Source: Asterochloris sp. CNOR1
Taxonomy: Eukaryota; Chlorophyta; Trebouxiophyceae; Trebouxiales; Trebouxiaceae
Assembly: GCA_963969365.1 (NCBI GenBank)
Contig: OZ017746.1
Location: 2,294,001-2,358,000, forward strand
Direction of reading: 5' to 3'
Length of the DNA stretch: 64,000 nt
Part shown: positions 1-64,000 of the stretch, one piece after another
Numbering within the stretch: the first letter of the stretch is position 1
Layout of the letters: each line of letters starts with the position of its first letter
Notes under the pieces: model-generated
Seen by the model: only the letters and a program-made list of their open reading frames with translations
Told to the model about the DNA's origin: nothing
Database searches by the model: none
Translations under genes and position numbers: made by a program

Positions 1-3000
1 GACCGAGGTGCCTGTCAGCAACACACCAGGCAGCATGGCTCCATCTGCCCCTCATCACACAAGCAGGTCCCTTGCAGCATCCCCACAGCGGCTGGCGACG
101 GCTCACCTCAGGAAGGCGCCAACCTCGCCGCTCAGGCCGCAATCGTTACTGCCGCCGGTGAGGCTGTCACAGATATGGGTGCAGTCCGGGCTGAGGTCCT
201 GGCAGCCACCGCTGGGCCCAGGCACAGAGGCAGGATAGGTGGTGCTGAGCGGGCCAGGCGCGGGGGCTGAGGCAGACGGCACGGCATTGCTGGTGCCAGT
301 GGCAGGCGAGCTGGGAGTCCCTTCTGTGAGGGGGGGCAAGCTTAGCAGTGGCAGCTGCGGCTCAGGCTCAGCTGTCTGCCCAGGAGGTGGCGGGGAGACG
401 CCGGCCGCAGTGGGGACCGCAGGCGGGGAGACGATCCCGGCTGTCAGAACCTGGAAGGGCGTTGGGCATCGGTTGCAGGTGATGTTGCAGAAGGCGGTCA
501 TGGATGGCTGTGTGCACGCCCCCATGGCCAACTGCAGCAACGACAGGCAGTTCCTTTCAGGCAGTGCAGACGACGAGACTGGTTGGACGAAGCCTTCTGA
601 GCTGCTCAATGCAATTGGGCAGCCTGCATGCTGGGGGCGGCAAGGCAGGATTGGTCAATAGTGCACTGCAGGGCTGCCAAGGACCCCTGCTCAAGCAGCT
701 CACTGCACTGCTCTTACCTGCTTGGCACAGCTGTAGTCTGAGCCTGGTGGTGGGACGTCAACGCAGTCATTGCTTGGGGATGGGCTTCTTTGTGGGCCTG
801 GAGACTGTGAAGTTGCCATTGGGCTGCCTGGGGGAGAAGGAGTTGGCGCTGCTGTCACAGGAGTGACAGCTGGGCTGCTGCGAGTGGGAATAGAAGCAGC
901 AGGAGTGCCTGATGGGCTGCTGGTCAGCAGCGGCCTTGGAGGCCCCGCCTGTGTACCAGCAGGGGAGCCTGCTGGGATACTGGTGATGGCAGGCGAGGCT
1001 GGTGCTGCTGTGAGGGGGTTGGCACCTGTTGAGTTGCTGCTTGGCAGTGGGCTTGGCACCTTTGTGACAGCAGGGTTGCCTGCTGGGCTCTCAGTGAGGG
1101 CAGGCGAGGTTGGTGATCCTGTGACGGGTGGGGCGCTACCTGGCAGGAGGCTTGGAGCCTTTGTGGCAGCAGGGGTGCCTACTGGACTGCCGTTGATGGG
1201 TGAGCTCGGGGATGTTTTGCTCTGAGTGCCTGCGGTGATGGGAGGTGAGCCTGACGCTGGGCTGCTGGGGACTGTGGGGGAGCTTGATGCTGGTGTCACA
1301 GGAGTGGCCCCTGCTGGGCTGCTGCTTGGTGGCAAGGTTGGAGCTAATATGGCAGCAGTGGTGCTTGCTGGGCTGCCTGTAAAGGCAGGCAAGCCTGGCG
1401 CTGGTGTGACAGGCATGCCAGCTGGGCTGCTGCTGGTGGAAGGTGAGCCTGGTGCACTGGTGGTGCCTGCAGGGGTGCCTGCTTGGCTGCCACTGTTGGC
1501 AGGTGCGCCTGGCGCTGGTGTCACAGACGTGCCTGGTGCGGAAGTGATGGCAGCAGGCGTGCCTGCTGGGCTGCTGGTGACTGCAGGTGAGCCTGGTGCT
1601 GTTGTCACAGGAACGCCAGCTGGGCTGCCACTGCCAGTGGTGGGCGGACCGGGCAAAGATGTGGGACTGCCTGGCAGTGGGCTGGTTGCTGTGGCAGCAG
1701 GAGTGCCTGCTGGGCTGCTAGTGGAGGACACGGGCGCTGCTGGGCTGCTGCTGGTGGCAGCAGGCAAGCCTGGTGTTGCTGTGGTGGTGGATGTTGCTGC
1801 TGTGCTGGTGGCCAGTGAGGGGGCAGCTGTGGTGGATGGAGCAGCGAAGGATGTGATGGGTGCAGCTGATGTGGTTGTTGGGGCGGTTGTGGTGGTGGAT
1901 GGTGCTGCCGTGCTGGTGGCCAGTGAGGGGGCAGCTGTGGTGGATGGAGCAGCGAAGGATGTGATGGGTGCCGTTGATGTAGTTGTTGGGGCGGTTGTGG
2001 TGGTGGATGGTGCTGCCGTGCTGGTGGCCAGTGAGGGGGCAGCTGTGGTGGACGGAGCAGCGAAGGATGTGATGGGTGCCGCTGATGTGGTTGTTGGGGT
2101 GGCTGTGGTGGCAGATGGTGCTGCTGTGCTGGTGGCCTGTGAGGGAGCAGCTGTGGTGGTTGGAGCAGCGATGGATGTGATGGGTGCTGCTGACGTGGAG
2201 GTTGGAGCGGCTGTGGTGGTGGATGGTGCTGCTGCGGCGGTGGCTGGAGCGGCCGTTGATGTGATGGGTGCGGCTGTGGTTGTTGCTGGGAGCTGTGTGC
2301 CCTGGACGGATGCTGGGGCTACTAACCCCGGTGCCCTGGTAGAAAGGCTGGGTGCGTGCACCGTTGAGCCAGGAGCAGTTGGAGATGGTGGTGGCATGAT
2401 GCCGCCAGGCGTGAAGATGGGCATGCTGCCAGAAGAGAGGGGGCAGCGGCCGCAAGTCACATTGCAGAAGCCTTGCATGAAGCCGGCATTGCACTGCCCA
2501 AAGTCCCTCTGCAGCTCAATTTCTGGGGTCACCAGGAAGTGCACACTGTGTCACTGTACATTGGGGTGGAGGCGTCCCCAGAGTAGAACCTGGCCAGGAG
2601 GATCACGGCGTATTTCCTGAATCTTGTGAGCAGCACCCATTGGAGAGACAAAGCGTGCACAGGGCAGCACTGCTGCCCAGATCAGCTGATGCATTACACG
2701 AAACAGACGGTGCAGTGCTTTGTGTGCAAATTCTTTGAGGGGCAGCAACACAGGACAGCTGCGCACCTGTTGAGCGCAGGTGTAGGCACTGCCAGCGGGC
2801 GGGGCATCAGCACAGCCGCCAGGTGCAGAAGGTGCAGTAGGTAGTGCATAGGGTGCTGGCACTGGAGCCCTCGGTGATGGTAATGGCAGCTGAGGCAGCG
2901 CAGGGCCACACAGGCCACAGGTGGCTCGGCAGTACGATCTGAAGCCAGGGCAGGCAAGTTTGAAGGAATCTCAGGCAGGCTGGGGCAGGCAGAGCAACAT

Positions 3001-3494
3001 GGTGCCAGGTGGCTGAGCCAGTGGGGGCCAGAAGTGCTGCAGGTGATCTTGCTACACAGAGTGCAGCCAGTGCTGGCGGGAGGCATGGCTCCGGGGATCC
3101 CAGGTAGGCTGGGGTCATGCAAAACATGGCGGCAAGGCGCTGAGGTTTTCAAGGCAGGATGAGGTCAGACAGGCTGCAGGTGGCCCAGCAGGACGATCTG
3201 CAGCCAGGTTAGGCCATAGGATTGATGCCTGTGAGGATCCCAGGCAGTCTGATCAGGCGCAAGTGAGGCATGGCGGCGGATTTGGCGCCAAAACGCAGCA
3301 TCTCACCGGAGATAGGTACCAAGCCAGCCATTGTCGCTACACTCCTTGGTGGGGTTGCTGCACAGGTCCTGGCAGTCGGCAGCATCGTCTTGACAGACAA
3401 GGGCGCTGGAGGGGCCAGGAGCCGTTGCAGGGAAAGGTTGAGCCAGTGCAGGGGCAAGCAGGCACAGCCAGAGGACAGAGGCACGTTGCCTCAT
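1..3494 (-). CDS. Secreted Ser/Thr/Pro-rich protein with ShKT-like six-cysteine modules (3' part outside window)
   Basis: Exons in order: 3494-3307, 2938-2767, 2508-718, 531-107, then a GTGAG donor leading off the window. All visible junction phases agree. The start ATG opens a signal peptide (MRQRASVLWLCLLAPALAQ). Four cysteine modules follow. Two have the form C-x-D-x-PP-x-G-x-x-Y-[TS]-C-A-[QK]-Q ... C-N-x-T-C-x-R-C, like the ShKT-type modules of algal extracellular proteins. The first and the last (cut by the window edge) are a variant beginning CQD and containing x-Y-C-x-x-T-C-G-L-C. Every module is split by an intron after its first half. Exon 3 is an enormous Ala/Ser/Thr/Pro mucin-like linker, including a 108-bp tandem repeat. 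It is probably a heavily O-glycosylated wall or matrix protein; no catalytic domain is visible in this window, but one could lie in the missing part. Confidence 0.8.
1790..2230. repeat. 108-bp tandem repeat inside the mucin-like exon
   Basis: The segment beginning gccagtgagggggcagctgt recurs at 1811, 1919 and 2027, a period of 108 bp (36 codons), with more diverged units at both ends. On the minus strand each unit encodes an Ala/Ser/Thr/Pro block of the type ITSFAAPSTTAAPS. The period is a multiple of three, so copy-number change keeps the frame. Confidence 0.9.
3168..3214 (-). repeat. Intronic copy of the start of exon 2 of the ShKT-module gene
   Basis: This lies in the first intron. It matches the exon 2 acceptor region at about 2913-2955. 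Both read, on the minus strand, CCTGGCT(T/G)CAG followed by ATCGT(A/C)CTGC and then GCCACCTG. The copy keeps a TGCAG acceptor and the same phase. Weaker copies of flanking sequence (ggatcccaggtaggctgg type) lie at about 2963, 3083 and 3232, so the intron seems built from repeated duplications. Confidence 0.65.
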
Positions 3495-5701: not shown

Positions 5702-7818
5702 TTATTCATCTTCTCTCTTGCTCGCTTTGGGGATCCTCTCAGTCTGATCATTCTTGTACTGTACCACAAACGCTGCGGAGGTGGCAAACAGAGCCACCCA
5801 GAAGATGCCCAGTCCAATAAAACTCTGCAAGACACAGCACAGTGGCATCGAGCACAGCAGTATCAAGCATGAAGAACGCCTGTCCAGGTGTATCTGCTCA
5901 CCTCCTTGTACAAAAAGAAGGCTGTGCCAGCCACAGCAGATCCACCAACAGCCAGGATTGCCACTGTAAGAGTGGCCACCTGAGACACTGTCTCAGAGGT
6001 GGGGGACTCAATCTGTCCGCCTGCACATGCAAGACAAGACAATTCAACCATCGGCGCTGCCGCTTGAAGTTGACAGTGCCGGGCAGCCTCGCAACCTGGC
6101 TGAGAGTAGTGAGGCATGTCGCCACAGCCAGGCTGCCTCAGCGCTTCGACTCGGCTGCAGAGGGCAACCTGCACGTGCTCTGCAGTCCGCCAGAGACCGT
6201 CATGCATCCATGCCGCACAGCTCTCTGGTGAACAGAGCACCCAGCAGGCCATCCTCGGTCCACGCAAGGGCAGATGCTCAGACGGTCCCCGCATTGATCA
6301 CCAATATGCAGGCGGGCGCCCAGGGCCAGCAGCTGGCGTACCTGGGGCCTCTGTGCCCTGCAGGTAGGACTTGGGCTGCAGAGCGTAGACGTTGTTCTTG
6401 TCTATGGAGGTGTCTGAGCCACCCCGGGTGCTGGCATAGGAGCGCGTGGTGGAGGCATCTGCGATGTCCACCTGGATGGCGTCCTGTGTCATCTTTACAG
6501 GGTAGATGTCCAGGGGTCTGCAGGTGTCACTGGGGGTCAGCACCCGCAGGACTGGGTTGTTTGGGTACCTGCAGGCAGGGCAGCGGATGTCTGCAATTTG
6601 CAGGAGGTGCTAGTGATCCACTTCTGCAAGAGGGGCTGCTGGGGCTGCCTGGGCTGAAGTCCCAGCCTCAAGGGGGCGCTGCTGAAGCCATCCCAGCAGC
6701 ATGCACTGCATGCAACATTGGCGGCAGCAAACCCCAGCATGAAAGATGCTGCTGAGCCTGATTTGGTATTGTGTAGACTTGGCAGCACCTGGTGCATGCA
6801 CAGATGGCAGCAGCATTCATGAGCTTCATCACATGCTGCTCAGGCTTGGCAGCGCCTGACATTTGCAGCCGCTCACCAGTCTATAATCTCGCCAGTCTTA
6901 AGGCTGAACACAGACTTGGTGGATGGACACTCAATCCCATAGTCCTGCAGGGGAAAGCGATGGTTGTGGCAAAGTTGGCAGGCATAGCCATCCTGTGGGG
7001 TCGCCACAGGCTCACCTGAGTGAACTTGGCATTGGCAAAGCCTTCACTGTAGGCGCCCTCTGCTGGGGACCTGCAGACCGCAAGCTCGAGGTTCAAGAAA
7101 GTGCCCAGACCTCTGCTGCCTGGCTTCTGTCCTCAGCCAGAGCTTGCTGCATCCAGCCGTACCTGTTCTCAATTGCGTACAACTGATTTCTGTACCAGAA
7201 GATGAGCACGCCAATGCCTTGCACCGTGACCTCTTTCCGAATTCCTGCATGCACACATGGATTGCATTGCACAAGTTGGTGTGTAGCAGCAGCAAGGCGT
7301 GCAGCTGCAGGTGCCACAACAAAGCTAGCAGCACAAGCAGCTCCGTCCCCACCGAGAAGAAGACATGCCCTGCCTCTGAGTCAACTGCAGCAGATGGCTT
7401 CCTGGCAGCAGCCAGCTTTGCCTGACAGCAGCAGTCAATGGTTCTGGCTGCACATGTCTCGATGGTCCCCTGCTAGGGCCGCTGCCGCGCCGCACCTTTA
7501 GGGAGGTCCTCTGGCTTCATGACGGGCACCCACTCCTCCTGCTCTGGAGGTGGGCTGCTCTGTGCATTTGTGGTGGATGCTGCACGGCACCAGCAACCTC
7601 AAGCGTTTACTAAGTTTGCTCCAGATTGCAAAAATTTCACAGCAGCACTCACTTTCTGCAGCTGCCCTGGCAGTCACTTGCCCCCTGCAGTCTCTGCATG
7701 TGGCAAGCCTCGAAAGCACACATCTTGGTGCATGTGGGAGCGAGAAAGGATTGTGTGACCGAAAGACAAGACCTCGCCCATGGCCTGCCTGGATCGAGGC
7801 AGGCAATGTTACGACCAT
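5702..7818 (-). CDS. PSB33: PSB33/TEF5, plastid Rieske-fold protein associated with photosystem II
   Basis: Eight exons: 7818-7653, 7579-7496, 7244-7163, 7070-7016, 6944-6877, 6568-6342, 6020-5902, 5824-5702, giving 307 residues with all phases consistent. Residues 1 to about 50 look like a chloroplast transit peptide ending ..VTARAAAE. The core contains WVPVMKPEDLPKGIRKE, LIFWYRNQLYAIENRSPAEG, AYSEGFANAKFTQDYGIECP and LKTGEI, the signature of the PSB33/TEF5 family. As in that family, the Cys-x-His pairs that bind a 2Fe-2S cluster in true Rieske proteins are missing, so no cluster is expected. Two hydrophobic segments near the C-terminus (TLTVAILAVGGSAVAGTAFF and IGLGIFWVALFATSAAFVV) anchor it in the thylakoid. 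Plant homologues support photosystem II and light-harvesting stability. Confidence 0.93.
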
Positions 7819-8169
7819 CTGACCTGCTGAAATGCCAGGCTGTGCACAGGATTGTAGAAGACGAGCAGAAGACAAGTAGCACAGGTCTCTTTTTGGATTG
7901 TCTCTGTTCAACATCTCTATTCACCACGCTCACATATCTCTGCACATCATTTGTCAGCGCTTCCGGAGTTAGCCAAGATTGGCCCTGTCAGAAAGCTGCT
8001 CGATCAGCTCAGCTGCTGCCAGAGCATCTGAACTCTCACCTCCTGTTGAAAGAGAACCTGCCAACATTCAGTGAGGGGTCACTCTTTGACACACTTAGAA
8101 GCTGCTCTCAGCTGGGAGGTCAGGGGCCCTGATGGCTGGTGCCTGGCTGTCTACTACCTGACCTGGAGG
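7819..8169. promoter_or_regulatory. Divergent intergenic region PSB33 / ACR
   Basis: These 351 bp separate the PSB33 ATG (minus) from the ATG chosen for the ACT-repeat protein (plus). It must carry both 5' leaders and both core promoters. No TATA box or other site could be assigned with confidence. Confidence 0.5.
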
Positions 8170-11100
8170 ATGGTTGCATCTCCAACTGCCCAGAACAGTG
8201 GCAACCTGGATGTCCCAAGCGATTCTGATGAGGAGACTGTGCTCATCAGGTGTGGTGATCTCTTAACTGTGAGGCACACATCAGCACATGCAGGCAGGCT
8301 TTTTAGGCTTCAGAACCTTGCCCTGTGAAAACTTGCTCAGTGGGCTGCATCCAGTTAGCGCCCTGCACCTGCAGGCCAATCTTTGGCATCGATGATGAGG
8401 CTCAGCGTGAGGTGCGAATCAGCTGCCCTGATGCCACTGGTCTGGGCTGCGATGTCACACGCATGCTGCTGGACTTTGGCCTCAAGGTGCTGCACGGCGA
8501 CATGACCACAGATGGGCGCTGGTGCTTCCTCATCTTTAAGGCAGGCCCTTCTGCCTGGTGCCTGCCCTGCGTCAGCAATTGCTGCAACTCCTGTCAGCCT
8601 TCCACATGCATGCCTGCTCCAGGTCTCTGAAGCAGGATCTGAGCCCTGGCATCCTCAAGCATGCCTGGTGCCTGCCTCTGGCCAGCACCATTGCTGTCAT
8701 GCATCCATGGTCTGCACCTTGAGATGCCCATCTCAGCCTCCCTCTGTGTTCCTTGTCTGGCTAGCTTGTCCATGACTTCGCCATTTCTGGCGGGCAATCA
8801 GTGTGGACCCCTGGCCTCTCCATGCATGCCCACTGCCCTGCCTTAGCAGGCACACTGCACTGCCTGTGGTCATCGTGGCCCACATGATGCAGGTGGTCTT
8901 GTGCCCTGGCATCCCTGCCCACTGGGCGCTGCTGAAAGCCCGGCTTGAAAAGATCTGCCCTTCTGGGCAGGCGGCCACATCCCTGTGGCGCTGGACCTCA
9001 GACAGGGTGGAGGTGCAGCATCCCTTTCTCTTGCAGGTGAATGAGCAACAGGCAACAGGCCCCACCTTGCTGTTGGCCAGGGCTGAGTGGGCCATGTGCG
9101 TGTGTCTGCTGCTTGCGTGCCTGGGGCGCTGCCCTAGTCATCTACTGCACTCCTGATCTTTGTCACACAGGTGAACACTGACCTGTGCAGCATGCATATG
9201 CCACCTTCCCTGCTGAATGACTGTGGCCCACACATCTGAAAGGCTGCACCCTCTGCAGGTCACGTCTTATGACAGAGCTGGCGTGCTCCATGGTGAGCTG
9301 GCGGGGCTGCAGGCCTGCTGTCCCAGCCAAGCACTGCCTGCCTGCCATCTGCACTCTGCTGCAGACACAATCAACACGGCAAGGTGTGCCATGCAGATCT
9401 GATGCACACCCTTTGGGAGAGCAATGTGGCGGTCTTTAAGGCTCACATCACAACTGGTCCCAGCAACAAAGTCCTGGATCTCTTTTGGCTGTATGACAAC
9501 AAAGGCAAGGCCGCACCCGTGCCTCAATTGCCGATCTGCCGGGCTGGGGTGCAGCCCCTCACCTGCTGACCTGGACTGTCCTTTCTCTGCAGGCGAACTG
9601 CCGGAGAACCACAGGTGGGTGTTGGCATTGTCCAGCTTTTGCAGGCATCCACCATCTCAGCTTGCTGCCATGGTTGCACACACCACACACATCTTTTGTA
9701 TGCCAACATGCTTCTGACTGCCACATCCCAGCCCTGTCACGCATCAGGAGCTCCGTCCGTTTACCGCATAGCACCTCCACCTGCCTGCACAGAGGTGAAA
9801 GTTTCTACTCCCCGCGCAGCACATTCGCCAGCACAACGCCCTACTGTGCAGTCAAGGATGAGGGGCTTGCCACGTGCCTCTTTTCCCCTTTTCATCCTGC
9901 AGGGTGCTCCAGATTTCAGACCTGGTGCGCGAGTGCCTAGGCCAGCCGGATGCAGCCTGCACCATCTCGCCCGCCCCACCCGATTCCTGTGAGGAGGACT
10001 CTACCTCCACCATCATCCAGCGCTGCGCTTGCAAGGTGATTCACAAAACCCATGGCTGCAAGTCCCTGTTACACGTTGACAACTTGGGGTGCAAAGCCCT
10101 GACCTGGCTGAGAGGCTGGCAGCACATTGGGCGCCCAGCCCCTTGTGTCAGCCACCAGCATGCTTGCCCGCCAAGGTTGAGGTGCTGGTCTCAGCTTGAG
10201 GACCTCAGCCACTCAACGTCAGTTGTCGTCACCTTCATGCATGTCGCTAGCCCACTTACTTCTGCCAACCCCTGTCCTGTCATCAAGGACCTCACCTGAT
10301 GTCTGTGCCTGCCAGGATGCACGCCCAGCCAGCTCCCTGCGCAAGATCATGGACGTCAAGCGCAACAGCCGAGGCAGCCTGGACAGCCTAGCGGCAGCCT
10401 CGCCCCCTGTAGTCATTGCCAGCAACGAGCGCGACGAGTATGGGGAGCGAGAGGCTGTGCAGGTGGGCAGGAATGCAGGAGGGTGCACCTGCCTGCGCTT
10501 TTCTGTGCAGGCTGTGCCCGTTGGAGCAGGGTGCCTGAATGGTGTGCACTGGGCAGGGAGCCGGAAAGGTGCCCAAACGGCATCAGGTGTGTCGCCCAGG
10601 CAATACCAGCACGTGCAGACTAGGAGGAGGCAGCGCAGGTGGTAGGAAGGGCATTCTGTGCAGCCCTAGAGCTTCGTGGGCCTGTCTGCCTGCCGGCCTC
10701 ACTGTTGGCAAACTCTGCTGTTGCTGGCTTGACTGTTGGCTCCAGGGCGCAGGCAGCCCTACAGGCTGTGCTATGCACTGCACCTTTCTGGCTGAGGCCT
10801 GTTGCTTCCTATGAGCCCAGTCCCCCAGCAAAGGCATGCTTCCGAAATGCTCGGCCTGTGAGAGGCGTTCACTGTTGGGTCAACTTTAATTCCAGCATCT
10901 CAGGCTGCATGTTCAGCCATTTGCTGGTCTGGCACTGCATCACCTCTGATACTCCAGTGCAGCTCTGTGCCTCTGAGCCTGCCCAGGCTGGCACCTGAGC
11001 CTACTGCTGGCACCTGAGCCTACTGCTGATCCTGAGCCCTGCTGCAGATCACAACCGACAACTGCACCACAGCTGTTGCTGAGCCTGAGCCCCGCTGCAG

Positions 11101-13128
11101 ATCACGATCGACAACAGCACCACAGCTGCCTACTCCCTTGTGGGCATTGTGTGCCTGGACCGCAAGGGCCTCGCTTTTGACCTGATGCGAACTCTGAAGG
11201 ACATGAACGTACGAGTGGCCTTTGGCAGCATCAACACCCGCGCGCGCAGCTGCGAGGCTGACCTCTTCGTCCAAGAAGTGGATGGCAGTCGGATAGAAGC
11301 CCCGTGAGTCACTGGTGCTATGAGGGCCGCACTGCAGCATGAGTGACCTTGAAGGCTTTGTTCAGGGCAGGACGTGCAAGCACCGCAGCATGGAGGACCC
11401 GTGAGTCATTGCTGCAAATGTGTGGAGCTGCCAGGAAGGTTCTGCCTGGTCTCATAGCCTGCTCTGTACGTTACTCATGCCTCTGTGATGAGGACCTTTT
11501 GTAGTCGTTGGAACATTGCTCACGGCGGCATATAGCACCTGCACGTCTTTGGTGCTTTGTACAGGGCAGCAATGCGCAACAGCAAGTGGATGGCACCGCA
11601 TAGCGGCCCCTGGTGCCTCTTTCAGGGCAGTGGTCTTGCGTCCTCATGCGCAATCCACAGCATCAAAATGGGTGGCCACAGGCGGTTGAAGCGTCTTGCC
11701 CCAGCATTATGCACAGCCTCTTGAGCATGGCGGCCGCTTTTGGAGCAGGCGTCAAGGCCTGCAGTGGCATGCAGGTGGCTGGCCCAGGTGAGCCTGAAGT
11801 GCCAGTGTGCAGCACCTGAGGCTTGGTGCCTGCCGCAGGGTTGTAGCCAGGGCCTGCAGAAATGCACGAGCAGCTGCCGCAGGTGTTCTGGTGAAACAGA
11901 GGTACCGGTGCGCATCGCCTCAGGGTTAGAGCCTGCTTGCAGGGACTCACAGCAAGAGCTGAAGGACCGCATCAGGCAGGCTGTGGCCCTGCCCGTCCGT
12001 ATTGCAATCAAAGGTGACTGTCTTGAAACAGCTCATGCCTGGGGCCCTGTGACTCAAACGGCTCAAGTCTGCTGGCTGAAACAATGGTACACTCAAATGT
12101 CAGCTTGAAGCAGCATGACAGCAAACAGCTCGTCGCCACATACTACCTCAACCATACGGGAGCTCATGCAGGACAACTCAGGGGTGCAGTCCTGTCGTAG
12201 GCTGCTGCCAATGTGCTGCCAAGATTGCCAAACCATTGCCCTGCAGATGTCTATGACGAGACCTGCACAGAGCTGCTCGTCACTGCCAACCTCGACAGTG
12301 GTGGCCGGGGCCGGCCAAGAGTGACGTATGATGTTACCGCTGCTCTGAACGCCATGCACCTGTGAGTGCAAGTGCATTGTGTGGGCTGGAATATTCTGCT
12401 TCTGCGGTGCACCTGTACTTGCACTGCTGTGACCGACCAGAGCAGTGTGCTGCCCTGATGTCCGCCCCGACCGCAACTCACATTTACGCTACCCGCAGCT
12501 ATCTGCCAGACTGCCCTGCTCCTGTCACCTGTTGCCCTTGCTTTGTGTTCATGGTCTTGCTGCCAGCCTGCACACTTCCTGCCTCCTTGGGTCCTTGGGT
12601 CCCGGCCTTCCCTGCCTTTGCCCTGCATGAAGCCCCGGCCTCTGCTGCCAGCCTGCACAGCTTCCTGCCTGGGCCTGCACGGAGCCTGGGCGGTTGCTAC
12701 CACCTTGGTTTCCCCAGCCTGAGAGGGGAGCAGCATGAGTCTAAGAGCAACAGGCACCCTGGGTCACTGCAGTCTCAGTCCAGGCCCTGCCCTCCTGCAG
12801 GTGCGTATTCATGGCAGACGTGTACATTGAGGCTGTCAGCGACGCAGACAAGCGGCCTGAGGAGATCCACCGCTTCCTCATTCACACTGCAGATGGATGC
12901 AGGCTCCAGACAGTGGAGGAGAAGAGGTACACTCGAGGCATTGCACACTGGGTTCAGCATTGTGACCTGATGGCAGCTTGCCTGGGCGGGCTGTTGCTCG
13001 CATGTCATTTGCCCCCTCTGCGCAGGCGACTGGCAATGCAGGGCAGCTCTACCTGCATGTCAGGACAGTCTTGTTCATCGGCAATGACTGCCATCCCTGG
13101 TGGATGCTCAGCAGTCCTTCTGAAGTGA
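8170..13128 (+). CDS. ACT-domain-repeat protein, ACR9/ACR10 type
   Basis: Exons: 8170-8249, 8375-8540, 8893-9081 (or to 9099), 9259-9292, 9397-9504, 9593-9614, 9903-10035, 10316-10462, 11101-11303, 11943-12013, 12247-12361, 12801-12926, 13026-13128; about 498 residues. ACT repeats are recognisable around VRISCPDATGLGCDVTRML, VTSYDRAGVLHDLMHTLWE, LVGIVCLDRKGLAFDLMRTL and GRGRPRVTYDVTAALNAMHL, spaced as in plant ACR9/ACR10. These proteins carry ACT folds like the bacterial uridylyltransferase GlnD but no catalytic domain, and are thought to sense amino acids; the ligand here is unknown. Two introns start with GC (after 8540 and 9504). The end of exon 3 is ambiguous: AGG|GCTGAG keeps family spacing, while TGC|GTGTGT adds six residues. 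An in-frame codon upstream leaves the exact start slightly open. Confidence 0.88.
11024..11129 (+). repeat. 53-bp tandem duplication over the acceptor of ACR exon 9
   Basis: gctgcagatcac followed by cgacaac and gcaccacagctg occurs at 11041 and again at 11094, the second being the true intron end and exon start (11101). Over the central 34 bp I count three mismatches. Both copies carry CTGCAG|ATCAC. Using the upstream acceptor would add 53 nt and shift the frame, so it is either dead or yields a non-productive transcript. Confidence 0.85.
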
Positions 13129-13706: not shown

Positions 13707-16700
13707 CCGTGACTGCCCACAGGCTGCACTCAGCTGTGCTGTTGCTCTGTCTGGCAGCAGCACTGGATGCAGAAGAGCTAAGCCGTAAGGTGAGCAAGCA
13801 AGCCTGGGTTAGGTCCTGTGCTGCTGATCTGATCCATACTGCCCTGCTGCAGGCTCTTGACAACAAGGGGTCTCATGCAGCCCCACACCTAGAGCAGATG
13901 CACCCTCTGAGCCCCGCAAGCTTGAAGATGAGCCGTGGCCTGCTGCAGACAACAGCGCCACCAACCACCAATGCCTGCACTGGCCAAAGAACATGTGACA
14001 CAGGTTAGGGGCCTGCTCCTGCCTCCTTCAATCCCCTGCTCAGGAGTGCAGGCCAGGACAGAGGGTGGAGGCTGCAATCCGCAGTCTGTCACCCCTATGG
14101 TGCACACTCTGCCCCTGCCAAGACGGGAGTGCTGGGCGCCATGCCAGCGCACAACAACTGTACGACGATGCATGCACACTGCAACCTGCTACTGCAGGGT
14201 GCACCGCCGTCCAAGCGCCTGATGGAAACTGCGTCTGTTCGTGTCCAGCGCCGCCACCTTCTCCACCCTCGCCGCCGCCACCACCGCCCTCCCCTCCAGC
14301 GCCGCCCAGGTGAGCAGCACGGCTAGGAAGAGGAAGTCTCAAGCCAGGGCAGAGTGCGTTTTGCAAAGCAACCCAGGGACTGTCTTACCGTGGAGAAGGT
14401 GGGGCAAACAGCCCTGCACAGTAGAGCTTTGCACCACCATGCAACTGCAGCAAGATGGTTTGAGCCCCCCAGCGAAAGAACCAACATGCAACAAAGTTCT
14501 GACTTGCTCCTGCCATTTTATGATGTTTGAAAACTTCCCAGAGTGCCAGGCAGTAAGCACATGCAGGGACAATCCCTGCCAGCAAGCTTGCCAATGTGAA
14601 ATGATCTGCTGAGCCCCCAAGGTGCTCTCCCTGGTGAGCAGTCACAGAGTAAGCGTGGAACTGCTTGTCCAAGTCTCCACATCCAAGCACCTTGCTCAGC
14701 GCTGTGCCACAAGTAGCAGGTTTGCATGATAGAGGAGGTGGCCCCTTGCCAGCCAGCCCAGAGTGGTGCAGTCATTGCGCAACGCCACACTGTTGATGAG
14801 TTACAAGGGCCATGGCTGGCCACACCTGTATGTGAGCACTGCAGGGTGCTGCAGCCCTCACACGTGTGCTCTGCACACTCTGCCTTGGGCACCATGGTGC
14901 TACGGTTCCAGGTTGCTTGTAACCTGCAGCCTGCCGCCAAGGTCCACCTCTTATTGGCCTCTGTATGAATGGCTGCGCATGGGCTGCTGCGCCCAGAACC
15001 CCTGTGCTCTGAGGTCTACTTCACCTACAGCTGTGACCCTTAGGTGCAGATGTGGCATTCAGATGCATTAGAGTCTGCCAGTACTCTGACTGCTCACTTC
15101 ATGCGATCCACCTGGTCCCTGTTGCTGCCTGCTGCTGATGCTGATGCTCTGATTGTGTGGTATTGTTGCTCCCTGTGACGCTGGGATCCATCTGACTGGT
15201 CACTCTTGTTGATATATTGCTGATCTGCCGCCTGCAGCCTGCCGCCTAGTACACCTCCAAGTGAGGGAACTAGCCTTGTCATTAGACTGCATAGCTTCTG
15301 TGATTCAGCATGTCCGACTTGTTGCCTGCAGCCCACCGCCGAGTCCGCCCCCAAGTCCGCCGCCACCAATACCTCCGCCGCCACCTATACCTCCGCCGCC
15401 ACCGCCAAGGTATGCACCGCACTGCAGCTGCTCACTCACATCTGCAGTCCACTACCCTGACAAGCAGCGGCTCAGGTATGAGCGGCAATGCAGCAAGGGT
15501 GTGCGATGCCTGCTGCAGCCTCGGATGTGTTCAGCGCTGGCTGCACCCCAGGACTGTCAGCCAGGCACTGCAGGGCTAGCTGCTCATGCCTGCTGCTGCA
15601 TTTGGAGTCACAGCAATCACTGGGGCAGACAGCATCCTTCAGTATAAATGTTGAAGAACATGTCGGCGCCCAGGCTCTCTGCCAGCTGTTCACGTGCCCA
15701 GTCTGTCAAGCATCGCCCAGAGCGCAGGCTTTCAAGACTGCCCCTACCCGTGCCCTGCTTTAAACTAGCTGTGTTCTCCAGGCCGGGAGCAAGACCTCTG
15801 TCCTGGCACCACCAGCGTCCACTGCATGCATGCAAGAAGCACAGCATGGGCCCTGTGCCTCTGCGCCGCAGTCCTTAGCCAGCAGCACTGATGTCCGCGT
15901 ACCCGGAGGAGTGGGGTCATTGCTGTGTGTGTCGCCCTGATGAAAACTCACCCTGGACTGAGGCCGGCCACGTATTTGTTGTGCCCTGCAGTCCGCCGCC
16001 ACCTTCGCCGCCCCCGCCGCCGCCGTCGCCCCCACATCCCCCGCCACCACCCTCCCCTCCCCCAGCCAAGGGGGCCTCAAGCCCGCCGCCCCCCAGGCGG
16101 CCGCCGCCGCCACCTGCCACCACCACAGCGGCGCCAACAATGGCTCCTGCCAGCCCTCCTCCCTCGCCAGAGACCAGCCTGCCACCGCCTGCTGCCAGCC
16201 CGCCACCGCCTGCTGCCAGTCCGCCACCGCCTGCTGCCAGCCCGCCACCGCCTGCTGCCGCCAGTCCGCCTCCGCCAGAAACCAGCCCGCCACCGCCTGC
16301 TGCCAGCCCGCCACCGCCTGAAGCCAGCCCACCACCGCCTGCTGCCCACCCGCCACCGCCTGCTGCCAGCCCGCCTCCGCCGGAAACCAGTCCGCCACCG
16401 CCTGCTACCAGCCCGCCACCGCCTGCTGCCAGTCCGCCTCCGCCTGAAGCCAGTCCGCCCCCGCCTGCCGAGAGTCCGCCGCCTCCAGAGAGCAGCCCGC
16501 CTCCACCAGGGGCGGGTCCACCTCCTCCGGCCAGCAGTCCGCCACTTCCAGAGAGCAGCCCACCTCCACCAGGTGCGGGTCCACCTCCTCCGGCCAGCAG
16601 TCCGCCACCTCCTGCAGCCAGTCCGCCGCCACCGGACATCAGCCCGCCGCCGCCTGCAGTAGCAAGTCCACCACCTCCAGCGCTCAGCCTTGATACACCC

Positions 16701-24184: not shown

Positions 24185-24271
24185 CCCCTCTGCAAACGAC
24201 TTGCTCTGTCAGAACTGATGTGCCCTTCATGGTTATGCGACACTGAAGTGATTCTATTCTGGAGCAGCATG

Positions 24272-45700: not shown

Positions 45701-46639
45701 CAGAGATGAGCACCAAGGGGGCCCTGGCCACAGGTGGGCAGGCACTTCTGGCTTGCCAGTCCACGAATCTGCCTGCGTGATGTGCTGTCATGCAGGCTTC
45801 AGGGTCCTTTGGCTGCCTACCAGTCAAGCGCTTCTGTCAAGCAAGCCAGTGCTGCATGTGCTGTCTCTCTCTGTAGATGAATGCACTATGTTGCACTTGC
45901 TGCACTACATCTGCCCTGTGGATGGCACAGGCTGCACCATGCTGCAAGCAATTTGCCAGCTTGCAACTGCACAGTGCATGGCAGGGGCTCCACGCCATCA
46001 CAATATCTGTGCTGCGTGGAGGCTGCAGCTGCAAGGCGCTGCACATGCGGGCTGCAATGTGAGCAATTCCCCATTCCGATACGGTGCTTCTCTACAGGGG
46101 CATACACAGAGGCCAATGCCAAGGCTGCCGAGGCGCACCAGGACTTTGTGATGGGCTTCATCTCTCAAGGCCCTGCCAAGTGGTCCTGGGGCCCATCCTC
46201 TCCAGGTCAGCAGGCAGTCGTCCCAACTCAGAATGCTCGTGCTGCCACACTGTCTGCCTGCCTGCCTGCAAACAAAAGAAGGCATTGGGCGACCGGCTCA
46301 GGCTGCACCTCTGCTGTGCTGCCCCAAACAGCCTGCCTGCAAACCTCAAAGGCATGCAGCGCTTTCCCTGAAAGATGGGCAAGCTTGGAGTGCACCACTC
46401 AGCTAAGTCAGGGCTCGCACCATGTAGGTCTGCTGCACATGACCCCTGGCGTTCAGCTGTCAGCTGGTGGCGACGCACTGGGCCAGCAGTACAACACTCC
46501 CACCTCTGTGATTGGCACTGGCGGCAGCGACATCATCATTGTCGGCAGGGGCATCATCAAGGCTTCTGACCCAGCCGCTGCAGCAGCAGAGTACCAGACT
46601 GCAGGCTGGAAGGCATACCTAGACAGTCTCAGCAAGTAG
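42747..46639 (+). CDS. UMPS: UMP synthase (orotate phosphoribosyltransferase plus OMP decarboxylase)
   Basis: Nine exons, phases consistent: 42747-42797, 42872-42970, 43357-43614, 44145-44458, 44779-44920, 45116-45215, 45512-45733, 46098-46205, 46428-46639; 501 residues. The OPRT half shows [51 protein letters not shown] and the PRPP loop [14 protein letters not shown]. The OMPDC half shows [15 protein letters not shown], the catalytic [13 protein letters not shown] (Asp-x-Lys-x-x-x-Asp), [24 protein letters not shown] and phosphate-binding [11 protein letters not shown]. It makes UMP from orotate and PRPP, the last two steps of pyrimidine synthesis. It starts [17 protein letters not shown], like plant UMPS, with no evident transit peptide. 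Introns after 44920 and 45215 begin with GC. Two introns carry exon-derived copies. Confidence 0.97.
43280..43320 (+). repeat. Decoy copy of the UMPS exon 3 acceptor
   Basis: ttgcaggtggccgcaaagtc near 43290-43310 resembles the true border ctgcaggtggccgaggtcat (43351-43370). A third gtggccgaggcg lies at 43206. Offset is about 62 bp. It is short, so moderate weight only. Confidence 0.45.
43689..43725 (+). repeat. Decayed intronic copy of part of UMPS exon 3
   Basis: GGCGCCTCTGAGAAGGGGCA followed by GACCTGCCTGAT, just after the exon 3 donor, resembles GGCGCCTTCCAGAAGGGGCA and AACCTGCCTCAT inside exon 3 (about 43527-43557). The exon segment encodes the KGQTCLI part of the PRPP site. Confidence 0.7.
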
Positions 46640-46844
46640 CTGCCAGGGAAGTGATCAACGCACAGTCCCACGCTTCCCAAACGAATGAGTGTTTGAGCTC
46701 TCATTTTGGGCATATGTTCGATCCAATTGACCAGTCAGCCAATCGTCCAGGGAATCTGGCGCCGCAAGTCCTCACCCGCCCATTGCGCGGAGCATCACGC
46801 CTCAATGCCTGTGTTGCTCAGCTGTCAGGAGTATGCTTTACCGT

Positions 46845-46849
46845 TGTAA
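46845..46849 (+). terminator. TGTAA polyadenylation signal, probably of UMPS
   Basis: TGTAA lies 206 bp after the UMPS stop and 31 bp before the AMY3 start codon, both plus strand. TGTAA is the standard chlorophyte signal. If used, UMPS cleavage would fall at or beside the AMY3 start, leaving almost no room for the AMY3 5' leader. Confidence 0.4.
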
Positions 46850-46880
46850 ACTTTGATCAGACGGCTCTCTGCGCTTTCAG

Positions 46881-49800: not shown

Positions 49801-50823
49801 CCAGCAATATAGGGGAAGCAGGGCCACCATCCTTCTGGGGCCCTTGTCCATTTGCAGACTGTGGTGGTCTGCTCTCCGACAGTAGACGCCTGCCTGCAGA
49901 GGAATGAGTTTGGGCGTCTGCGGGACAGGGAGGGCAGGCCGCCGGGCCTGACGGGGTGGTGGCCAGCACGCAGCAGCCCCTTCCTCTGCAATCACGACTG
50001 TGGTGAGCACACAGCAGCGCTGACACCACCAGCCTGAGGCAGCATAGCTGCAGTGGATTTCTCTGCTAAGCCGCCTCTTCCCTGCTAATGGCGCCGTCGT
50101 GGCTGAGCACAGCAGCTATTTTGGCCATACTGATCTCAAATGCTTCGCGGCGAACAATGCATTGCCTGCTCCTATTGACCTGTGATCGCTGCTTCACAGG
50201 TTCATTTACTCGTGCACTGCAGACTCGACCCAGGGGCACTGGCGCTTCCCCAGGCATGGCCTGGAGCAGGGCTACGCCTACCTGCTGACGCACCCTGGCA
50301 CCCCCTGCCTGTTCTGGGACGACCTGATGGAGCCCAGACTGCAGCAGTCTATACGCACTCTAATTGGTGTGCGGCAGCGCAATGGCATACACTGCCGCAG
50401 CGAGGTGCGGTGCTGGGTGCTGTTTGACCTCTAATGTCGTGTGGCAGGCTCTGATTACATTGCTAGCAGTAGCTCTGGTCATACAACAGGGCTGTGGCTG
50501 CTTGTCAGCAGCGTGTGGGTCAGATGGCTTTGGTTGATACACGTGTAAGTCAGCAGCTTGTCCCTGAAATAAGGGCAAACTGTGCCGAAGACATTCTGGA
50601 AAAGTCTGCACCTGACAGATCGGCATCACATGTACAAGTGGATGTTGCCTGTGCATTGCAGGTCTGGATCAAGCATGCAGAGCGCAGCATCTATGTGGCG
50701 GAGATTGATGGGTGTATGCTTATGAAGATGGGGCCTGCCAAGTATCAGCCGGAGGAGGCTCACTGGCGCTCTGTGGCTTCAGGGCACCACTGGGAGATCT
50801 GGGAAAAGGTTCAGCAGCATTGA
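46881..50823 (+). CDS. AMY3: Plastid alpha-amylase, AMY3 type (GH13)
   Basis: Nine exons, phases consistent: 46881-47066, 47166-47660, 47960-48150, 48530-48639, 48914-49100, 49399-49630, 49900-50002, 50223-50404, 50662-50823; 615 residues. The start opens a transit-like peptide (MPLPLHTQLPSAQFRLIWA ... RRAVQICAQQ). Then come about 190 residues rich in Gln/Ala/Glu/Pro, probably coiled coil or linker. The GH13 barrel has region I DVVINHR, region II GFDGWRFDFVRG (Asp nucleophile), region III FAVAEFWD (Glu acid/base) and region IV FLCNHDCD (Asp stabiliser). Plant AMY3 has two N-terminal CBM45 starch-binding domains; I do not see their Trp motifs. It hydrolyses internal alpha-1,4 bonds in plastid starch. 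The C-terminal beta domain (ERSIYVAEIDGCMLMKMGP) is present. Confidence 0.93.
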
Positions 50824-50894
50824 GAGGTCACCCAGCAGGAACTCCACCTTCATCATTTAATGAATTGAGGTTATCTTGGGACAAAACGCTTTAG

Positions 50895-53144: not shown

Positions 53145-56100
53145 TCACAAAATTTCTTCCTTGACACTAGAGGACTTGCTGGGTGGCGGGGCGTGGGCTG
53201 ACATCAGAAATTCATGCGTGGCTTGGTCCATTGCGCTCTGATCTGTGACATTGCCCAGCGCCTGCTCCACGCTCTGCATGCTTTCAAGGCCGCTGTTGTG
53301 GCGCTGCACATGCAGCTGCTGCTGGTCCAGGGGCATGTCGTGCAGCATAGCTGCCACCTGCAGCAGCCCAGGAAGCAGGGGCCTCAGGAAGCAGGCATTG
53401 ACCCATCAGGGTCCCAGGGCATGTCGTGCAGCTCAGCTGCCGTCTGTAGACAAGCAGGGACCCCAGGAAAATGCAGTGACATGGCGGCAGCACAGAGCAT
53501 GTTGGCGGCCCCCAGGACATACCAGCAGTGGAGCTGGGCAGCACAGGATTCAGTCATGACAGCAGGTGCGAGGCACTGGCTGCAGCCTGCATACCCAAGG
53601 CATCAAAGCGCTCTTACACTTACTGTCCTGATGTCTGAGACATCACACGCAAGATGAGGCACCTACCTGCTCCCCAGGCAGCTCCATGGACTCCAGCTTG
53701 CCAATGCCCAGGCTGCCAAACCTGCTCATCCCCGAGAAGGGGCTGGTGCCCATGGTGGGCTGGGTGAGCATGTCCCCCTGGTGCGCAGCCAGCAGCTGCT
53801 CCAGGTCTGCGCTCTGCATGGGGGCAGGGATGGAGGGGAAGCCTGCAGGCAGCCAGCCAACCACAATCGCGTGAGGGTTGCTGCCCAGTGTCCCTGGCAG
53901 AGGCATACCAAACCTCCAGGGCCAGCAGGCTGGGGCAGGCTCCCACTGGCAGCCAACATTGCTCAGGGCAGCACGCCTGCCGACAGGGTGGGATTTAAGC
54001 AGGAAGACTGAGGCTGAGATGGCTTGGCTGAGGCAGGGTTCCTCATAGTGCGAAATCTTCACCAGACATGCAGCCCAGGTCTTGAAACAGAGCAGTGACA
54101 GCAGACAACCCTTCACAGAACATCCCAGTTCAAGCTTTGCCAACCTGTGCTGCAGAGACAAAGCATGCATTGCCCTGTAGATCAGGCACCACCTTGGCAG
54201 AGGGTTTCAGCCCACCTGCCAAGGAGAGGGCACCAGCCCCTGTGCTGGAGAGACGGCTTAGGTCAGCCGCTGAGAGGGGCCCCGTGAACATGGAGTGCAT
54301 GTAGGGCGCAAGGTCCGCCGGCATGGGGCGGCTCATCCCCGGCATGCACTGCGAGAAGGCATTGGCCTGCGGGTCTCCAGGAGCCTCCTGGGGAATCTGC
54401 TGGCGGTCGCTGCTGCCGCTGCTGCTGCTGCCGGCGGGGCCGTTCGTGGGGATGCCCCGCCCGGGGCCCTGCTGCTCATGCGCCTGCTGCGCTGCGCTGC
54501 GGCGGGTGTGCGGCGCCTGCTGCCCCGGCGCGATCTGGGGCTCGGCTGGCAGCCCTGCAAAGGGCGAAGTGGTGGGCATGCCTGCAGGGCAGTGGCGGCC
54601 TGGTGGGTACCAAGCAGCGGCAAAGTCAGCATCACAGCCACATGCTGCTCGCCACATGGCAGCAGGGGCACGAGGCAGGCGCAAGCTCGGCGCTGCCCCC
54701 ACATGCACAGCAGGGACACATCAGCGCTGCAGCCATACTTACTGCAGACAGAGCAGGGCACAGCAGTGCAGAGCGCCTGCTGCGCCCATCCCGGAGCAGG
54801 CAATGAGGCAAGAAGAGCAGAGACGCCAACTCATTGCAGGCACCACCACATTTTCACACCAAGTCGTGCCGGCAGCTACTGGTGCTGGTGCTGCCTGCGA
54901 TGAAACTATGGCGGCGCCTGCACTGGGACTGACACCTCTCCTGGCAGGGGCTGGGCCGCCCCTCTCACCTTGCAAGCTGCTGCCGGGCTGCAGGTGCTGC
55001 ATGGGATGGGTCATCTGGTGCGGCCCATCCGGCTGCATGAATCCTGGCCCACACCCAGGCGGCAAGCCCTTCTGCATGGGGTACCCCTGCAGGGGCTGGT
55101 AGGACGACATGCCTGCAGGCAGACAGAGCACCCATCACCACCTGAGCCAGCTTCAGTGCCTGTAAGGAGATCACCCTGCGGGACCCAGCACGCTGCCTGC
55201 ATCAACCAGTAGCGTGGTGCACCAAGGGCAGGGCAGGTGCAAGGTGTTCCGGGCGACCCTCCTGCACGCAGATGCAGTGCACCTCCCAGGGGCGTCCAGC
55301 ATCGGCGAAGCTGGCAGCTTCTCAGGCTTACCCATGCTGGATGGCACGGGCGCTGTAACCCGTGTCTGATCACTCTGCTGGGTACTCTCCAGCGTCCCTG
55401 TGTTCACGAAGGACTCGCTGTCCACTGGGTAGATGGCCCACCCCGAGTGCCCAGGCTGCCACCAGCAGGCCACTCCCTGAGGCTGCAGCTGCCGCACCTG
55501 CGACACGAGAGACGTCTGTCTCACATGCATCTCACTGGAGTGCTGATGGACGCAGGCCCTCTGTCCAGTGACCTGTCTATGCAGCCCCTGCAGGCACTGA
55601 ATCAGTCAGCAGGGGCCAAGCAGGGGTTGCACAGGCCTGAAGCAGACCTGCGGGCACCACAGCGATTGCACAGGCCTGAAGCAGACCTGCGGGCACCACA
55701 GCGATTGCACAGGCCTGAAGCAGACCTGCGGGCACCACAGCGATTGCACAAGCCTGAAGCAGACCTGCGGGCACCACAGCGACTGGAAACAAAGCAATGC
55801 ATGCGGCTTCCCAGTCAGCAGCATTTGGCAGGGTCGTAAGCACGCGGCCAACAAGCTGAAACTCAAGTATCTCGGTGTCAGTTTGCTGAGCGCTGCTGTG
55901 CTGCATCATGGGTGTGCAGGTTCTGCTGCAGCCATTGCTTGATGGCTTGCCTGCTCTCGCTGTGCAGGCGTCTGCTGCGCCATGAGGGTGGCCTCCATCG
56001 TGGTCTGGCTGCCATCCTGGCTTTTCTTCTGCAGGAGGCCTGCAGGCAGCAGCCTCCCTCAGTGAGTGGATTTGTGTCACCTTCCTTTGCAATACCCAGG

Positions 56101-59100: not shown

Positions 59101-60222
59101 TGCCAGGCCCTGCCTCACCTCCAGCTGCACTTTGTTGGCTCAATGCAGAGAGCACTACCTGCACAGCAATCGCGGCACGCCGCCCAAGCCTCTGCCTCAC
59201 CTCCAGCTGCACATCCTTGATGTCCTCCCCAAGGGGGATGCCAGTGGCCCTGTCGATGATCTCCACTCTGATGGGGGCATCGCACTTGGCCTTGAGGATG
59301 TCATTCACCAGGTATTTGGGAGCAAAGTTCACATTGCACCTGCGATGGGGGTTGTGCTCGCACAGCACACACTGCGGGTCCAAGCATCCCAACGACCTGC
59401 AGCAAGAGGAGTGGCAGCTCAGGGCAGGGCTGAGATGCGGCACCAGCACAGGCAGGATGCCTGTGGGTCCCAGCAGCCTGCAGCAGCAGGATTGTTAGCC
59501 TCAGACAAGATGACGTGCATCCACTGCACAGGCAGGACACGCTGCGGCATTCAACAACCCAATGACCACCTATGATGAAAAGGTGGGAGCCTCAGGCAGT
59601 CACAACTGGTGCATGAGCAGCAGATGCTGAGCCTGAGAGCTCCCTTCAGCCTGCAGTCAGAAAGGTCTTGGAGCAGCATGTACACGACAGCGCAGTGCGT
59701 GGTACCCACATCATCCTGAAGGCCCTGAAAGGCAAAAGCAATGCAAGTCCCTTGGCTGCTGCAGATGCAGGAGGAAGCAGCACAGCTCTAGGTGACTCAC
59801 AAGCAGTCGTGTCTGAAAACCAGCTGGAGATCCCGGCTCTCCACTGGCACGCTGGCCGGCCCTGGCAGGCTGGCAATGGCCTCTGCGGTCGCATGTTGCA
59901 GCACCCGCTGGTCCACTGTGAGGTGCATCCGTCTTGCAAGTGCTCCAGAAAATTGGAATATACGTGTACGAACATACTCCTGCAGGGCATGAAAGGTTTG
60001 GAGGTCGTGTTATGCACTCTCTCTGGAGTCGACGTAGTCCTGGCAGGCGGGACAGATTTGCGCTGGCCATTGGTGGGCAAGCCTTGTGGCAGCCCTGCAC
60101 CCGGCTGGCTCATCAGGCTCATCATGGCAACGCAGAAGCTGGTCAGGTCAGGGGCGGACCTCCAAGACATATGGGGGCACCCCTTGCAGCTCAGGCGGCA
60201 AGGGAATGCCCTGCTCCTCCAT
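53145..60222 (-). CDS. CBP60-like calmodulin-binding transcription factor
   Basis: Exons: 60222-60160, 59979-59801, 59396-59201, 58748-58647, 58449-58375, 58213-58061, 57491-57317, 56749-56485, 56230-56128, 56028-55951, 55497-55332, 55112-54969, 54581-54216, 53842-53667, 53357-53145; about 817 residues, phases consistent (exon 9 borders least sure). The order follows CBP60: VDQRVLQHATAEAIASLPG with RDLQLVF; NFAPKYLVNDILKAKCDAPI with VEIIDRATG; LEMCILDGNAYD; CSLLLNNK; LHVSDSSEAMLSGRKPPFRL; VSEGFVVATRRTRTA; DDHVSKLEHMGKETVKKLQD; VGEFRKLAQMAEADGHLRQK; then WDDARDHAMRAVVADNRMRIW. An extra Cys-rich insert, CVLCEHNPHRRC, precedes the DNA-binding core. The tail is Gln/Pro/Met-rich, like an activation region. 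In plants CBP60g/SARD1 control immune genes. The intron after 55951 starts with GC. Confidence 0.8.
53411..53444 (-). repeat. Intronic copy of the start of the last CBP60-like exon
   Basis: gtcccagggcatgtcgtgca with gctcagctgcc repeats the true exon start at 53323-53357 (ggtccaggggcatgtcgtgc, agcatagctgcc), about 88 bp away, in the preceding intron. Confidence 0.75.
55627..55782. repeat. 39-bp minisatellite, four units
   Basis: Four head-to-tail 39-bp units starting ttgcacaggcctgaagcaga (55627, 55666, 55705, 55744), nearly identical; the last differs by one base. It lies in an intron of the CBP60-like gene. The period is a multiple of three, so it stays open in several frames, but neither strand shows a start, splice site or family that would make it coding. 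Confidence 0.95.
59041..59137 (-). repeat. Two intronic relics of the end of CBP60-like exon 3
   Basis: In the intron after 59201, GTGCAGCTGGAGGTGAGGCA (minus strand, about 59132-59112) repeats the exon 3 end with its donor, and GAGGACATCAAGGATGTGCG (about 59062-59042) repeats the segment just before it. The true copies lie at about 59201-59225. The first relic keeps an intact GAG|GTGAGG donor. Confidence 0.8.
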
Positions 60223-62690: not shown

Positions 62691-62823
62691 GCAAGTCACG
62701 CAGGGGGCCTTGGTGAACAGCACTGCCGAGCAGCAGCAGTATGAGGAGGGTGCGAAGCAACTCAGACTGCGAGCGGCTGCATCTGACCGCATCACGGGAG
62801 GGACCTGGGGCACTCTGTACGAG
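62691..62823 (+). CDS. Probable internal exon of an unidentified gene
   Basis: A 133-bp segment bounded by GCCGCAG and GAG|GTGAGC reads in one frame QVTQGALVNSTAEQQQYEEG, AKQLRLRAAASDRITGG and TWGTLYE. No family recognised. The upstream exon and the join to any downstream exon are not settled; an acceptor at 63150 in matching phase would give a short ending (ISAEAELPHHSKARGSSAGS then stop). Confidence 0.3.
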
Positions 62824-63151
62824 GTGAGCTGCCGACCAGACGCTGCCTCAGCATTTCGGGCAGCAACACAATGCCACACTGCACATGAGAGCTGAAACAC
62901 CACAGCCTTCAATGCCAAGGTAATGGGGTTTACTTCAAGATCAACTGGCCCAGGAAAGGCCAGAGGAAAAAGCAGCTGAGTCAGGTCTTCCACATAAGGT
63001 GTGCTTGTGTGCACACAAACAGCAGCCAGGCTGGGGCACCAAAAGGGTTTGAGTGCACCAACTACTGCCCCTTCCAAGCCTCTTACAACCCAGCACATCA
63101 CAAGTAGAGCCGCATCTTGCGCAAAATCAATGCCTGCCTCATGCCTGCAGA

Positions 63152-64000
63152 TCTCAGCTGAAGCAGAGCTGCCCCACCATTCCAAGGCCCGGGGAAGCTC
63201 AGCTGGCAGCTAGTGGGGCCTTGAAGGCAGCTCTGCCAATCGCCTGCCAGGGACAGCCCTCGGGGGCAGCAATGATTGCAGGCCTCAGCAGCCGCAGCAG
63301 TTCCAATGCTTCCCTCCTGTCCCCAGATCACGAGCCGCTCACTTCACTGGGCAGCGGGGGCAGCCTCAGCACGCATCCGGCGACAGCTGTGCACAATGCC
63401 GGGGAGTGGCCTTTCACAGAGGCTGCCACCCTGCACTGCGGCTCCCCAGGTGACTGCACAGGCTGTGCGAGAGTCAGCAACATTGACTTGGCCGGGTCTG
63501 CACGTCCAAACTGCACAGCTCCCAATACTGCACTGCAGCTGCACCCACTGTCACCTGGACGCCCAGTTGAGGTGACTGGGCTGCATCCACAGTCAGGAGT
63601 GGCCGCCGAGTCCCCCTTTTCCTGGCTCTGCAGTCCACTATTGCTAAGTCCTGCTCAGGCTCAACACTAGCCTTCACAAACTGCAGGGGTCCGATTTGAC
63701 ATTTGTGCGCAGCCCAGCTGCCGGGTCAATGGCACAGTGCCCCTGATCACGATACTGAAACACAGCAGCTTCCCATCCAGTGCAACTGCAAGACCAGAAG
63801 CCGGCAGCAGGGAGGAGGCAGGCCTTGTGCGAGAGAGCACACATGCAGCCCATCCTGCAGCTGACTCAGCAGCCCAGGCTGCACCTGACCATGAAGCACA
63901 GGTGCGACATGGTGCCGCTTCAGCACGTCTTGGGGGGGAACGGAATGCAGCATGTGGCAGCATGGCGGGCTGCACCGCCCTGGCGCCTCCACCCAGCCAG
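63152..64000 (+). CDS. Possible coding exons continuing past the window end
   Basis: After a CCTGCAG acceptor at 63150 one plus-strand frame (from SQLKQSCPTIPRP) stays open to a stop at 63670, about 173 codons, Ser/Ala/Gly-rich. A second frame, from about 63690 (VRFDICAQPSCRVNGTVPLI) to base 64000, is also free of stops and runs off the edge. No family is visible, and I could not join the two in phase, so the call is weak. Confidence 0.25.

Follow-up and report, generated by a model that had tools for sequence, protein, structure and literature searches.

The window analysed here is a 64,000-nucleotide stretch of the green alga Asterochloris sp. CNOR1 (assembly GCA_963969365.1, contig OZ017746.1, positions 2,294,001 to 2,358,000), and its genes carry many short introns. 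In six of these genes, namely, those for a ShKT-module protein, an ACR protein, a Pro-rich membrane protein, a J-GPALPP protein, UMPS, and a CBP60-like protein, we found partial copies of exon edges within introns or upstream of the exon concerned. The origin and fate of such copies are the subject of this work. The genome comprises 56.4 Mb in 21 contigs, and the window sits on a 4.47-Mb contig. The scans covered 314 kb, consisting of the window and 250 kb from the same genome.

Gene models were produced by our own unsupervised, self-trained finder, run on the 314 kb without RNA support. The output contained 68 genes, 613 exons, and 545 introns with a median length of 261 bp, and the modelled splice consensus was CAG/GTGAGC for donors and CTGCAG/G for acceptors (slash at the border). 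The acceptors are very strict (T 0.91, G 0.92, and C 0.98), and GC donors account for about 8% of the modelled introns, perhaps in part through finder error. Thirteen models lie within the window. Among them, UMPS and an alpha-amylase form a single model (42747-50823), probably two adjacent genes merged by the finder, and a minus-strand model at 15305-17035 is doubtful and likely false. Ten of the 13 models were submitted to a Pfam scan, which matched an ACR9/10-type ACT protein, Hpt, an ABC transporter, UMPS (the OMP decarboxylase part), alpha-amylase, and LisH-CTLH; the J-GPALPP gene matched DnaJ and DUF3752. At a cut-off of 0.001, neither the shortened ShKT protein nor the CBP60-like protein had a Pfam match. 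The names ShKT, CBP60, and GPALPP are those of an earlier sequence-only reading of the window. Tandem repeats with 108-bp and 21-bp units occupy Pro/Thr-rich coding stretches at 1663-2310 and 16102-16674.

On the minus strand, the functional acceptor edge of the ShKT-module gene (2904-2955; modelled exon 2767-2938) is identical at 42 of 52 positions to a copy at 3163-3214, 259 bp away, in which TGCAG is present. The modelled first exon, downstream of this copy, is doubtful; the alignment of copy and edge scored 30.0 against a maximum of 14.5 in 5000 control comparisons. In the plus-strand ACR gene, an intronic copy at 11024-11075 matches the functional acceptor edge at 11077-11128 in 47 of 52 positions and keeps CTGCAG, the two abutting as a 53-bp tandem unit. 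The modelled exon begins at 11101, which is also where the Pfam match to ACT_ACR9_3rd starts (residue 242). The Pro-rich membrane protein gene (plus strand) has a copy of an exon start at 18014-18104, identical in 74 of 92 columns to the functional acceptor edge at 18125-18216 (modelled exon 18130-18348). A second intronic copy in the same gene (20653-20687, 28/35) derives from the acceptor edge at 20857, and its AG has become AT.

Three edges are involved in the plus-strand J-GPALPP gene. The donor edge at 26697-26743 (donor 26742) resembles intronic stretches at 26801-26824 and 26883-26929 (41/48). The functional donor edge at 28183-28252 (modelled exon 27899-28245) has a copy 118 bp away at 28301-28370, with GT kept and 83 of 104 gapped columns identical. 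A single mismatch occurs in the 48 bp preceding the splice site, and the likeness resumes past a 12-bp gap. The acceptor edge at 28808 has a copy at 28723-28757 (29/35). In UMPS, on the same strand, an exon segment at 43525-43556 recurs 162 bp downstream at 43687-43718 (27/32), where the finder kept the copy as coding, and the donor edge at 44435-44488 (donor 44458) has an intronic copy at 44549-44600 (45/54) that has lost its GT. In the minus-strand CBP60-like gene, intronic copies at 53410-53449 and 59105-59137 match the acceptor edge at 53324-53363 (acceptor 53357; 33/40) and the donor edge at 59187-59219 (donor 59201; 31/36 gapped, GTGAGG kept). A modelled intron of this gene holds four nearly identical 39-bp repeats (55627-55782), a young tandem array.

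For each of 11 such alignments, 5,000 control comparisons were made against 407 introns, all outside the window, and the observed score was never reached; the best control came to 23.7 where the CBP60 acceptor scored 24.6. Direct alignment thus bore out the sequence-only reading for all six genes, including the single mismatch in about 48 bp of J-GPALPP and the distances of 53 to about 260 bp between copy and source (53-259 bp in the named cases); whole-length identities of these alignments were 80-90%. Its count of six in fifteen genes was close, as we obtained 13 models, one a likely fusion and one likely false. A strict automatic rule flagged four of the 13 and missed ShKT, where the copy lies upstream of the doubtful first exon, and UMPS, where it is gapped; both were recovered by direct alignment.

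The pattern extends beyond these genes. Tandem arrays (period of at most 12, or at least 2.6 copies), 1,535 bases in all, were masked first. Ungapped self-comparison of the 314 kb at offsets of 20-319 bp and a score of at least 18 gave 155 direct matches, compared with a mean of 1.0 (standard deviation 0.9) in eight far offset bands used as a control. Local dinucleotide shuffles gave one match in five sets together (0.2 per set), and local inverted matches numbered five. Local duplications were found in 69 of the 545 introns, and 47 introns (about 1 in 12), distributed over 29 of the 68 genes, hold a duplication of the exon-edge type. When exon-edge windows were compared with deeper intron sequence (475 introns left after excluding those shorter than 100 bp), 42/475 donor and 39/475 acceptor windows had a copy at score 14, compared with 0.8 and 0.9 expected from the introns of other genes. 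Random intron windows, taken only from introns of at least 200 bp, had copies in 22/363 cases against 2.0 expected. At score 18, copies were found for 25 donor, 22 acceptor, and 7 intron windows. CTGCAG-like words are frequent in these introns, so that mere chance or low-complexity likeness, or the common splice consensus alone, might be thought to produce the matches. This explanation deserves almost no credence, since the far-offset, shuffle, other-intron, and inverted controls all failed to produce the pattern, which also rules out composition alone. The observation is sound and general.

Merging of 168 local hits at offsets of 20-400 bp gave 122 events. In 33 of these, the match encloses a border and the copy lies in the intron; 16 are exon-intron pairs, 35 are confined to introns, 18 lie within exons, eight have borders in both copies, eight are intergenic, and four are of other kinds. 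The first two classes constitute 49 edge events, and in all of them a modelled border lies between the exon copy and the intron copy. Where the border falls inside the match, the splice dinucleotide of the copy is unchanged in 28 of 39 cases (13 GT, 13 AG, and 2 GC), and in a further four GT has become GC. At the median per-base identity of this class of events (83%), roughly 69% of dinucleotides would be expected to be retained, so the observed retention is close to chance expectation and gives no sign of faster site loss. The earlier suggestion that the redundant site is lost to the intron therefore mostly does not hold if lost means mutated, although individual losses occur, as at UMPS 44458 and Pro-rich 20857. 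As judged against the modelled sites, 17 of the 39 copy sites (10/21 donors and 7/18 acceptors) score above the lower quartile.

Such retained, well-scoring sites would suit copies that selection maintains as exons, alternative or mutually exclusive, or as regulated alternative splice sites. The coding content of the copies makes such a role very unlikely. Were the copy used, the frame would shift in 32 of the 49 edge events and an in-frame stop would be met in nine, leaving eight open. Mismatches are spread rather evenly over the codon positions of the functional exon (92/526, 74/524, and 109/524, or 17.5, 14.1, and 20.8%), too evenly for two coding copies, which means that the copies are not behaving like coding sequence. 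Distances between copy and source are multiples of three in only 9/33 border-inside events, 8/16 exon-intron pairs, and 23/58 spans that include one border. Coding or alternative exons are not supported by the frame and codon-position results. Equally, we saw no sign that the copies supply raw material for new exons, as had been proposed, and found no case of a sliding splice site. Intron-only events are multiples of three in 16/35 cases, whereas 17 of 18 duplications within exons preserve the frame (14/14 at span level), which indicates that reading-frame selection filters the exon-internal outcomes.

These results are probably best explained by a general process of local direct duplication, combined with a preference for exon edges that is modest at most. 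A mutational process would make short direct duplications, with units of about 20-300 bp, throughout these genes. When the unit falls in an intron or over one border, splicing could stay on the original edge and leave the protein unchanged, and the extra copy would then become intron and decay, presumably neutrally. A unit inside an exon would survive only when the reading frame is kept. The edge copies would mainly be duplications that happened to cover one border, and they would stay visible longer because their functional half is constrained. With the spare splice site decaying at about the ordinary rate, many introns would hold a usable-looking spare site. The steady process of short duplication postulated from the window is well supported by the excess and by the spread of identities, and it is tandem in the young long cases: copies abut in ACR (53-bp unit, 52 bp matched), at L013 (119-bp unit, 121 bp matched), and at L004 (65-bp unit, 60 bp matched). 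The molecular step may be slippage or a form of repair that yields tandem copies. At L017, a 387-bp tandem duplication, a multiple of three, has 91% identity over 134 bp (6467-6600) including an exon end and its donor, and can be viewed as a step from an edge copy toward a whole-exon copy.

Several observations weigh against this explanation, and they concern the spacing of the copies, the frequency of borders among the matches, and the gene models. The last point is simple: the models depend on a self-trained finder without RNA. With regard to spacing, copies abut within 10 bp in only 9/33 border-inside and 14/35 intron events. The unmatched spacers of the remainder may be read as decay. However, tandem duplication followed by decay poorly explains a few short copies that combine high identity with wide spacing, among them pairs of 25, 22, and 56 bp lying 322, 200, and 231 bp apart, respectively. 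Several well-matched copies parted from their source by unmatched DNA would fit repair-mediated proximal duplication, that is, templated insertion. Insertions of this type should occur in both orientations, and the near absence of inverted copies (5 against 155 direct) counts against them, as does the abutment of the long young cases. We consider this origin quite unlikely. Proximal duplications of this kind have been published in vertebrates, with one inverted example among them (PMC2671141). A dispersed or introner-like element is a further candidate that we rejected, as three cases searched against the 56-Mb genome were each found at a single place (the search skips common words). Apart from the short matches, L012 contains a 1,208-bp inverted duplication (7057-8264 and 8793-10000) that is 100% identical and reaches the end of the examined stretch, with the same modelled intron on both strands.

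The frequency of borders raises the question of whether exon-intron junctions are themselves a target. Random relocation of the matches expects 15.8 border-inside events, 22.6 exon-intron pairs, 35.9 intron events, 12.0 within exons, 2.9 with borders in both copies, and 16.9 intergenic. The observed 33 border-inside matches were reached in none of 1000 relocations. At span level, there were 58 one-border spans against 39.1 relocated and 27 intron-only spans against 28.5, and the one-border share of the two classes was 0.682 versus 0.578 (P 0.038). We also ran simulations without any border preference, in which units were placed anywhere and the functional exon evolved at 0.15-0.5 of the neutral rate. 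Across the 18 settings, edge types made up 42-55% of intron-touching events, and the observed share (49/84, 58%) exceeded every setting, with odds ratios of 1.16-1.93 and one-sided P values of 0.002-0.28 (<0.05 in 9 of the 18). Copies were 1.4-1.5 times as frequent for border windows as for intron windows at score 14, and 2.4-2.7 times as frequent at score 18, despite the one-sided search target of the border windows. Intergenic events were fewer than expected by random placement (8 versus 16.5), a depletion that may stem from the modelling or reflect a genuine connection with transcription.

All these results would favor a border-directed process, in which some property of splice sites or transcription favors exon edges as starting points for duplication, for example, DNA-RNA hybrids or slippage between repeated CTGCAG and CAGGTG motifs. 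Other results speak against it. Border-crossing pairs overall (50, or 33 + 16 + 1) fit relocation (46.4), without excess. Matched bases are spread evenly along introns (about 3-7%), and their density does not rise next to the border (3-5% within 40 bp on the intron side versus 4-7% deeper). On the exon side, it is 7% at 0-20 bp, fades over 60-100 bp, and is 0-1% past 80 bp. Most matched segments enclose the border and do not end on it. Furthermore, letting exons decay more slowly was enough, in the absence of any preference, to reproduce much of the excess; in a smaller simulation run, the edge share was 43-49% when exons were constrained and 38-39% when they were not. Given the flat density and these simulations, a large part of the edge excess needs no border preference and is, under the model, attributable to slower decay of the exon half. 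Most of the pattern can be accounted for in the absence of a border-specific origin, which we retain as an unlikely alternative to general local duplication, while a modest preference (odds 1.2-1.9) is possible. Of the process across exon-intron borders suggested by the sequence-only reading, the absorption of copies into introns is supported, but our results do not show borders to be a target. A fuller version of that idea seems to us rather improbable: duplication would have a moderate bias toward exon-intron borders under transcription, through, for instance, DNA breaks linked to splicing or transcription, and introns would grow chiefly by re-copying their own edges, so that spare, near-functional splice sites were always in supply.

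That the copies lengthen introns, as the sequence-only reading had it, is supported. The introns of the 49 edge events have a median length of 508 bp, compared with 247 bp for introns without any event. Long introns offer more room for events, yet the median after subtraction of the offset (370 bp) is still above 247 bp. As a rough estimate, events of at least 85% identity may add 0.08-0.31 bases of intron DNA per neutral substitution per site. Creation of new introns by tandem duplication, in the manner of Rogers, was not supported by a test for introns whose two ends form in-register copies of a single exonic AGGT segment: only one of the 545 introns had clearly matching ends (score of at least 13), compared with 0.1 expected, and this one reads better as a duplicated acceptor.

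The process belongs to a known kind, and its outcome here is intron lengthening that leaves a spare splice site. Messer and Arndt, in 2007, reportedly described short insertions as arising by tandem duplication, a process that is, going by the title, likewise local, direct, and tandem. Here it is followed across exon-intron borders in one genome, with units of 20-300 bp. Gao and Lynch, in 2009, are said to have treated internal gene duplication, which similarly involves small duplications inside genes. Tandem duplication as a source of introns has been described in potato (PMC4974935, whose authors refer to Rogers 1989 and to Gao and Lynch 2009) and in Drosophila (PMC2891723). In these cases, tandem duplication within genes likewise copies splice signals, but the result is a new intron, whereas the Asterochloris duplications lengthen an existing one and leave a spare site. 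The vertebrate proximal duplications are also nearby copies, some spanning partial exon and intron, with four donors of this type in Table 2; that set differs in omitting copies within 50 bp of each other and in being recognised through insertion into transposable elements, and its example exon is inverted (PMC2671141). Introner elements (PMC9860276) also alter intron content but copy themselves into many genes, unlike our three single-place cases. Our literature search, which went largely by listings of papers, found no count of exon-edge copies in the introns of a green alga.

For gene annotators, these copies are a warning, as they can be called exons, which our own finder did in UMPS. For the alga, the retained sites lead us to predict low-level splicing at the copies, most of it prone to nonsense-mediated decay. 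The copies also provide a readable record of how introns lengthen.

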